Shown piece by piece: positions 50,342-52,067 of a stretch of DNA of 64,000 nt (its first letter is position 1; each line of letters starts with the position of its first letter). Location: contig CAJFQM010000008.1 of the NCBI GenBank assembly GCA_904419075.1, positions 62,001 to 126,000 of the forward strand, in the 5' to 3' direction. Under the pieces are notes generated by a model. It was not told where the DNA came from. It was given only the letters and a program-made list of their open reading frames with translations, and did no database searches. The stretch comes from an uncultured Clostridia bacterium (lineage in GTDB: Bacteria; Bacillota; Clostridia; Christensenellales; Borkfalkiaceae). The position numbers and the translations under genes were made by a program.

Positions 50342-50370
50342 TTGACACGGAGCATTTTTTCTGTTACAAT
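50342..50370 (+). promoter_or_regulatory. Sigma-A promoter for the ABC-F leader
   Basis: TTGACA (50342-50347), 17-nt spacer, TACAAT (50365-50370). Transcription should begin near 50377, giving a leader of about 215 nt. Confidence 0.85.
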
Positions 50371-50397
50371 AGAGAAAATCATGTCGGAGGGAAAGGA

Positions 50398-50418
50398 GTG
50401 TATACGATTTCTTGCTGA
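50398..50418 (+). CDS. Six-codon regulatory leader peptide
   Basis: GTG TAT ACG ATT TCT TGC TGA encodes MYTISC; GGAGGG lies 7-8 nt upstream. Its codons 4-6 overlap attenuator segment 1. An alternative frame from ATG 50381, about four bases from the expected transcript start, encodes 32 residues and stops at 50479, just before segment 2. Either could be the sensor frame. Confidence 0.5.
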   Translation: MYTISC

Positions 50419-50538
50419 AATTTCATACGGGCGGAATTGGCTGCGGAGCGGAATGCTTCGGGGCGGGATTCTGTCGTAAAAGCAAGAAAGCGAATACAGT
50501 TTGTCCTTGAAATCCGCCTTTGGACGGAATATGAAAGA

Positions 50539-50575
50539 CCGCAGGAAAGATTCTCTTTCTTGCGGCTTTATTTTT
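50539..50575 (+). terminator. Attenuator terminator before the ABC-F gene
   Basis: 12-bp stem (50539-50550 with 50554-50565, one G-U), loop TTC, then CTTTATTTTT. It ends 17 nt before the ABC-F start codon. Confidence 0.8.
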
Positions 50576-50591
50576 GACCGAAGGAGGATTC

Positions 50592-52067
50592 ATGAACATT
50601 CAAATTAAAAATCTGACGTTTTCTTATCCCGGGAGCGGGGAAAACGTCTTTGAAAACGTATCTTTTTCACTGGATACCCGCTGGAAAACGGGGCTTATCG
50701 GCAGGAACGGGCGGGGAAAAACTACTCTGCTCAAACTGTTGAACGGCGAATTCGAGGGCGAATATTCGGGTACGATTTCCCGTCCCTCGGAAGTAGATTA
50801 TTTCCCTTGTCCCCTGCCCGACGGCGAGACGTTGACGATGGATGCCCTGTCGGCATTGAGCGGTGCGGAAGAATGGCGGATCGCCAGAGAGTTGTCCCTG
50901 TTGGGCGTTTCCGATGCGACGCTGTATCGGACGTTTTCCTCTCTTTCGGGCGGAGAACAGACCAAGGCGCTGTTGGCGGCGATGTTTTTGCGGGAGGGGA
51001 ATTTCCTTCTGATAGACGAGCCGACCAATCATCTCGATCTGCCGTCTAAAATTTGCGTGGCGGAGTATCTTCGGAAGAAGGAGAGCTTTTTGCTGGTCTC
51101 CCACGACAGAGATCTGCTGGATTCCTGTACGGATCATATCCTGTCCCTGAATCGGACGGACATTGAAGTTCAGGCGGGAAATTTTTCTTCATGGTATGAG
51201 AATACCCGCCGCACGGAAGCGTTCGAAAGGAGTCGAGACGAGAAGCTGAAAAAGGAGATCAGGAGATTGAAAGATTCCGCCCGCCGAACGGCGGAGTGGT
51301 CGGACAAAACGGAAGCGGGAAAATACAACACCCGAAACTCGGGCCTGCGGGTGGATCGCGGCTATGTCGGGCATCAGGCGGCCAAAATGATGAAAACCTC
51401 CAAGGTCATCGAGGACCATAAAGAGCGCGCGATAGAGGAAAAGTCCGCGCTCCTGAAAAATGCGGAGGAGGCGGAAAGTCTGAAAATCCGCCCGCTCGAA
51501 TTTTTTTCGGAACGTTTGCTCGAAATCAAAGATCTGACCGTCCGCTACGGGGCGACCGAGGCGTGCAAAGGTGTTTCTTTTTCCGTCTTTCAGGGGGACA
51601 GGATTGCGTTGAACGGAAAAAACGGCTGCGGAAAATCCTCGGTTTTTCGGGCGATTTTAGGATTTGCGGAATTTTCGGGGACGATTCTCCTGTCCCCGCG
51701 GCTAAAAATTTCTTATGTCCCGCAAAATACGGATTCCCTTTCGGGTTCGCTCGGCGAATACGCCCGTCAATATGGAATAGAGGAAAGTCTGTTTAAGGCC
51801 GTTCTGGATAAACTGGGTTTCCGAAAAAAGGATTTCTCCGCCGATTTGTCGGCCATGAGCGCGGGACAGAAAAAGAAAGCGGCGCTCGCTCGAAGCCTTT
51901 GCGAAAGCGCACACCTGTATATTTGGGACGAACCGCTCAATTATATCGACATTATTTCCCGTGCGCAGATAGAAGAGCTCATTCTCGCCTTTCGCCCTTC
52001 TCTGCTCTTTGTGGAACACGATTCCGCCTTTCTCCGTAACATCGCCTCGAAAATTATACAGCTTTAA
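50592..52067 (+). CDS. ABC-F ribosomal protection ATPase, Lsa/CplR-like
   Basis: 491 residues from ATG 50592 (AAGGAGG upstream). Two ABC modules without membrane segments: GLIGRNGRGKTTLLKLL, LSGGEQTKALLAAM and LLIDEPTNHLDLP in the first; LNGKNGCGKSSVFRAIL, MSAGQKKKAALARSL and LYIWDEPLNYIDI in the second. The linker (~205-300) is charged and helical. The opening LDTRWKTGLIGRNGRGKTTLLKLL is close to Lsa and CplR proteins, which displace lincosamides, pleuromutilins and streptogramin A from the ribosome. Resistance itself is inferred from this likeness and the inducible leader. Confidence 0.85.
   Translation: MNIQIKNLTFSYPGSGENVFENVSFSLDTRWKTGLIGRNGRGKTTLLKLLNGEFEGEYSGTISRPSEVDYFPCPLPDGETLTMDALSALSGAEEWRIARELSLLGVSDATLYRTFSSLSGGEQTKALLAAMFLREGNFLLIDEPTNHLDLPSKICVAEYLRKKESFLLVSHDRDLLDSCTDHILSLNRTDIEVQAGNFSSWYENTRRTEAFERSRDEKLKKEIRRLKDSARRTAEWSDKTEAGKYNTRNSGLRVDRGYVGHQAAKMMKTSKVIEDHKERAIEEKSALLKNAEEAESLKIRPLEFFSERLLEIKDLTVRYGATEACKGVSFSVFQGDRIALNGKNGCGKSSVFRAILGFAEFSGTILLSPRLKISYVPQNTDSLSGSLGEYARQYGIEESLFKAVLDKLGFRKKDFSADLSAMSAGQKKKAALARSLCESAHLYIWDEPLNYIDIISRAQIEELILAFRPSLLFVEHDSAFLRNIASKIIQL

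Follow-up and report, generated by a model that had tools for sequence, protein, structure and literature searches.

The principle of ribosome-mediated attenuation in front of resistance genes is already known from VmlR, CplR, TiaA and MsrD, and leaders of the logic discussed here have been proven experimentally for VmlR and CplR (PMC9226507, PMC10201436). For VmlR (PMC9226507) and TiaA (PMC12421871), lincosamides, pleuromutilins and streptogramin A drugs have been described as arresting the ribosome at the start codon. In the vmlR leader lincosamides and pleuromutilins arrest the ribosome at the start or early codons (PMC9226507), the uORF of the cplR leader senses lincomycin and retapamulin (PMC10201436), and in the TiaA/Are5sc leaders start-codon arrest by a lincosamide, streptogramin A and a pleuromutilin was seen by toeprinting (PMC12421871). 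The Lsa-like ABC-F gene found in the 64,000-nucleotide stretch of DNA analysed here (the window) is very probably controlled in a related way, by a ribosome-mediated transcription attenuator combined with a translational second lock. The initial annotation had proposed a complete four-segment attenuator in front of this gene, which is supported both by the elements in place and by the covariation of the segments.

All elements of the locus lie on the forward (+) strand. The promoter, which had been called consensus, is indeed present as a sigma-A type promoter (50342–50370, 11/12 match) with the -35 element TTGACA at 50342–50347, a 17-nt spacer, the -10 element TACAAT at 50365–50370 and the TG of an extended -10, and transcription would start at about 50377. 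The annotated six-codon uORF, GTG TAT ACG ATT TCT TGC TGA (50398–50418), is preceded at a distance of seven bases by a GGAGG Shine-Dalgarno (SD) sequence (50386–50390) that is conserved in relatives. As the start codon is GTG, the reading MYTISC assumes initiation with methionine, and this start counts against the preferred explanation. Segment 1, TTTCTTGCT (50408–50416), begins at +11 from the start codon, and segment 2, AGCAAGAAAG (50481–50490), may pair either with segment 1 or with segment 4, CTTTCTTGC (50555–50563), in the 3' arm of the terminator; all three annotated matches are exact. Such a three-way match is rare: when the leader was shuffled 5000 times, two copies of an 8-mer separated by at least 60 nt and flanking its reverse complement were obtained in 5 cases.

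The uORF, its SD and segment 2 are all contained in an anti-antiterminator stem, SL-1 (50388–50508), carrying an apical hairpin (50426–50478) whose helix covaries in relatives. Segment 2 is extended by GAAT (50492–50495), the antiterminator partner of which is ATTC at 50550–50553 on the loop side of the terminator. Further downstream follow an anti-SD strand (50511–50523), an intrinsic terminator hairpin composed of segments 3 and 4 (50539–50565; 12-bp stem, loop TTC) and a U-tract (50567–50575), and the distance from the terminator to the ABC-F ATG at 50592 was measured as ∼17 nt, the value annotated. In the predicted fold the ABC-F SD, AAGGAGG (50581–50587), is sequestered by pairing of 50578–50590 with the anti-SD strand, a feature absent from the initial annotation. 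The leader (50377–50591) folds with -91.9 kcal/mol (z = -7.9), and none of 200 shuffles folded as well. A search of the window against Rfam gave no match at gathering score.

The region also contains a longer frame of 32 codons, from ATG 50381 to TAA 50479, which is open and the stop of which adjoins segment 2, so that it could be taken for the translated leader, with a ribosome at the stop codon covering segment 2 as in amino-acid attenuators. This reading is extremely improbable, since the ATG is nearly leaderless and has no SD and is missing in two leaders of the same genus (L009, L010), in which the short GTG...TGA frame with its SD is kept, as it is across the class; the longer ORF was rejected as leader ORF for the lack of an SD and the loss of the ATG in these two relatives.

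The gene downstream (50592–52067) codes for an ABC-F ribosome protection protein of 491 aa. It had been described as Lsa/CplR-like, of which the first half holds: the NCBIfam scores are 659.8 bits for Lsa, the best of the ARE-ABCF subfamilies, 206.6 for Vga and 195.4 for CplR, and membership of the CplR family (cut-off 780) was rejected. The best match among solved structures (PDB) is Lsa(A), and the protein shares 53.6% identity with plasmid-borne Lsa(E). Since the Lsa score is below the curated cut-off for a named Lsa (750) and the protein passes the general ribo_prot_ABC_F cut-off (454 vs 380), it is referred to here as Lsa-like, not as a named Lsa. The genome of the window encodes no second close match to this protein, and a close match was found in 50 of the 301 sampled genomes of the family. 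As to the host, the description as a gut-type Clostridium relative is fair in its first part, some relatives within the family being apparently rabbit- or chicken-gut MAGs labelled Clostridia, and loose in its second.

The same leader plan occurs 5' of homologous genes in Clostridia, Paenibacillaceae, Brevibacillus and one Synergistales bin, and in 45 of 48 non-redundant leaders a terminator lies just 5' of the gene. A covariance model built from SL-1 and searched with no protein information found a single strong site in the window genome (E = 2e-9, next 0.3; leader score 60.8 bits) and sites in 42 of the 391 genomes of the class. When new loci found by this RNA search were fetched, an ABC-F gene was present downstream in all 29, and in 28 it was Lsa-like. 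In the remaining one (L147, uORF MIIFSCK) the leader precedes an ABC-F gene of the Msr/CplR/Vga-like group, not Lsa, which may reflect a leader swap or convergence. Features of leaders of the VmlR/CplR kind that are present here are a short uORF with SD, a terminator and mutually exclusive anti-antiterminator and antiterminator pairings. Upstream regions that look alike in MAGs labelled Eubacteriales, Alphaproteobacteria and Ruminococcus (L091, L094, L096) are probably due to mis-binned contigs.

That segments 1, 2 and 4 covary among relatives had been set beforehand as a check of the attenuator and was borne out. The pairs of SL-1 are kept in 81.8% of the cells of alignment A2, and two-sided changes were counted in 82 cells compared with 32.5 in shuffles, a value reached by none of 500 shuffles, slid controls being far lower. 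As RNAalifold on the MAFFT alignment returned the apical helix only, the helix between segments 1 and 2 was named and counted directly. Cognate and swapped leader segments were then compared in 45 non-redundant relatives, with kinship ignored and a permutation floor of p = 0.0002. At this floor cognate pairing was stronger for uORF:segment 2 (-16.8 vs -12.2), for segment 2 with the loop plus 3' arm of the terminator (-17.7 vs -13.1) and for anti-SD:SD (-10.6 vs -9.1). The control pairings uORF:SD (p = 0.87) and segment 2:SD (p = 0.53) showed no cognate excess in this set, and the control mid-region:terminator was borderline (p = 0.05). The uORF:segment 2 and segment 2:terminator pairings were replicated, at the same permutation floor, in 24 leaders found by the RNA model alone, in which the segment 2:SD control was borderline (p = 0.05), and again in a third set of 39 leaders, mostly from Paenibacillaceae.

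The motif TTTCTTGC lies 8–12 nt past the start codon irrespective of uORF length (1, 2, 3, 6 or 9 codons). With uORFs of 2 to 9 codons, segment 1 starts at +11 in most leaders, at +8 in one clade (MYISCR) and at +12 in MK-stop leaders. In most Paenibacillaceae uORFs a stop codon (UAA, UAG or UGA) follows the AUG directly, and the motif lies at about +9. A start-stop uORF was scored in 29 of 36 non-redundant Paenibacillaceae leaders. In 7 of these the stop is UGA and overlaps a GUG start, and one or two of the UAA calls are doubtful, so that the clear AUG-UAA/UAG leaders number roughly 20. The call is ambiguous in the AUGUGA variants, owing to the overlapping GUG, and in L098, where AUA may be the start; the call for L202 was wrong, and L192 has a GTG-stop uORF.

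The initial annotation had invoked the logic of drug-induced stalling known for ABC-F and erm genes. An Erm/MsrD-type mechanism, in which the drug and a nascent peptide (xxFSC) would stall the ribosome at a defined uORF codon and the peptide sequence would be the sensor, could draw on the S-C kept in most six-codon uORFs. These two residues are, on the other hand, the coding outcome of the paired motif TTTCTTGC starting at +11; in the MK*, MI*, MRN*, MKL* and AUG-stop variants the motif is retained outside the ORF, and in one clade (MYISCR) it lies at +8. Instead of a conserved stalling peptide, uORFs of 1–9 codons with an RNA motif at fixed distance are found, and a literature search for the uORF peptides gave no relevant match. 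The peptide cannot be the sensor in the AUG-stop leaders, and is unlikely to be so in the remaining ones; an Erm/MsrD-type sensor is accordingly rated as quite improbable. The constant spacing between start codon and segment 1, combined with variable peptide and length, points to start-codon or early-elongation arrest, as in VmlR or TiaA, as a better model than erm-type stalling. Of the annotated analogy, then, the ABC-F half is retained as VmlR-like early arrest and the erm half is given up, neither the identity nor the length of the peptide being conserved. Lincosamides, pleuromutilins and streptogramin A drugs are, by homology, plausible inducers.

Comparison of the sequences shows the elements, the covariation of the three segments, the constant position of segment 1 relative to the start codon and the association with ABC-F and Cfr genes; the arrest site, drug spectrum, kinetics and effect on expression are what we infer in the following scheme. 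With no drug, the leading ribosome would translate and then leave the tiny uORF, segments 1 and 2 would pair in SL-1, the terminator would form, and in any read-through transcript the ABC-F SD would be paired. A peptidyl-transferase-centre drug would arrest the ribosome on or close to the uORF start codon, where its footprint, reaching to about +16, would hide most of segment 1 (+11 to +19); the freed segment 2 could then pair with the loop and the 3' arm of the terminator as both leave the RNA polymerase, and termination would be avoided. Meanwhile the antiterminator loop would hold the anti-SD strand and leave the ABC-F SD free.

Segment 2 is approximately a copy of the 5' arm of the terminator, which leaves the 3' arm as the only arm that the antiterminator can use. 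The bases after segment 2 are complementary to the terminator loop (GTTA:TAAC in many leaders, GAAT:ATTC in the window), so that pairing of the antiterminator can begin before the 3' arm emerges. As the anti-SD strand is located between segments 2 and 4, release of the ABC-F SD should accompany antitermination, and sequestration of the SD is predicted from the fold to add a translational layer to the attenuator. It is conceivable that control is mainly translational, with the terminator playing a minor part: the predicted fold pairs the ABC-F SD, anti-SD:SD covaries, and in C. difficile cplR the SD lock suffices alone (PMC10201436). Nearly all leaders, however, have a terminator with a U-tract, and this terminator is the alternative partner of segment 2, which makes a mainly translational mechanism unlikely.

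Folding with the uORF masked had been set as a check, and masking did not change the structure: the equilibrium fold keeps the terminator even when the uORF is masked. The switch would therefore have to be co-transcriptional, and prefix folding of growing transcripts from 69 leaders, with a start-codon ribosome mask from -12 to +16, was used instead. With this initiating-ribosome mask the antiterminator was better than the terminator at some emergence point in 65 of the 69 leaders; with the mask removed, the terminator, once it had emerged completely, won in nearly all, by ∼4–19 kcal/mol. In the window copy the antiterminator was never favoured under the start-codon mask (+1 to +2 while emerging, ∼+7 kcal/mol when complete), reaching -1.9 only with a larger mask and standing at +14 unmasked. 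The window's own copy is thus, as modelled, an energetically weak switch, and so are those of its two same-genus relatives. These energetics would suit a decayed attenuator, i.e. a working family in which the window copy no longer switches and leaves the gene off or constitutive. Against this stand the intact elements and ABC-F ORF, the strong promoter and the 60.8-bit match to the RNA model, and decay is considered improbable.

The leader is also present in front of lsa(E) on the E. faecalis plasmid pE15 (uORF MYNFSC, model score 79.9 bits), and ∼100 plasmid records, almost all of them from Enterococcus, contain a nearly identical stretch with no annotation. Past the terminator, the lsa(E) leader of Enterococcus plasmids (L152, 1103–1491) has a second possible uORF (GTG, VIDNDTMSFMTKSLQSWITL). 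In Paenibacillaceae an AUG-stop leader with segment 2 and terminator precedes lsa-cfr pairs (L186–L189) and, in five further loci (L185, L191, L193, L201, L203), Cfr-type 23S rRNA methyltransferase genes with no intervening ABC-F. That two unrelated enzymes guarding the same ribosomal site share one leader supports a drug-sensing role. In the five latter loci, where the uORF is AUG-UAA, the terminator lies 200–430 nt 5' of the Cfr-type gene, leaving room for a second element.

Other arrangements were noted as well. Leader-like matches in Paenibacillaceae L190 and L172, with no lsa/ABC-F or cfr in the fetched stretch, are possibly remnants or serve other targets. Tandem control is seen in L063, L075, L131, L133 and L146 (also L091 and L148), where a second leader lies between the attenuator and the ABC-F gene, with an SD-sequestering helix and a uORF that is longer (MINKDTLLTHDNLHIESDTAGDTYME, for example). 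A second leader class occurs in Bacilli (L064, L070, L087, L089, L092, L101, L107, L109, L113, L153), with a V-T-H-x-x-L-R-I-S-R-like motif in the uORF and an anti-SD helix; plasmid lsa(B) (L153) belongs to this class.

The leader family is apparently widespread and undescribed: neither the RNA family nor the peptide-free frame nor its placement before lsa(E) and cfr was found in Rfam, as searched with the window, or in the openly accessible papers searched, and no priority is claimed. It is on balance probable that a single unrecognised RNA family senses PTC-binding antibiotics via the initiating ribosome, with the peptide dispensable (AUG-stop in Paenibacillaceae), controls Lsa-type ABC-F and Cfr genes, and has travelled to clinical plasmids together with lsa(E). 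For lsa(E) and chromosomal lsa/cfr, the inducibility of which was not found described in the literature searched, this would provide a control element that can be tested; standard susceptibility tests can miss cryptic inducible resistance. The AUG-stop uORFs represent a natural test of whether start-codon arrest alone suffices to sense an antibiotic, a point that the studies of VmlR, CplR and TiaA brought up but did not decide, and the RNA model can flag probably drug-responsive resistance genes straight from sequence.

Among the described systems, the vmlR leader of Bacillus subtilis (uORF MIN; PMC9226507) has the same parts, i.e. a uORF inside an anti-antiterminator stem, an antiterminator, an intrinsic terminator and an SD-sequestering helix. 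The window gene, however, belongs to another ABC-F subfamily, its uORF and sequence are different, and, unlike in vmlR, segment 2 is nearly a copy of the terminator 5' arm and the antiterminator is formed with the loop plus 3' arm of the terminator. The cplR leader of Clostridioides difficile (uORF MR[I/M]) likewise combines a terminator with an SD lock, but there the terminator itself covers the SD, the protein is ARE1 and the uORF has three codons (PMC10201436). The lsa(A) leader of Enterococcus faecalis shares an Lsa-family target and differs in its uORF, MAGN, which is a tool prediction only (PMC10201436). The TiaA/Are5sc leaders of Streptomyces coelicolor are alike in the start-codon arrest proposed for the window, whereas they control actinobacterial ARE5 genes and have the uORFs MLV and MVGDDDISG (PMC12421871). 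Finally, the msrD leader also subjects an ABC-F gene to transcription attenuation via a ribosome stalled on a uORF, but is macrolide-specific and acts by elongation arrest (PMC10314930, PMC4335068).
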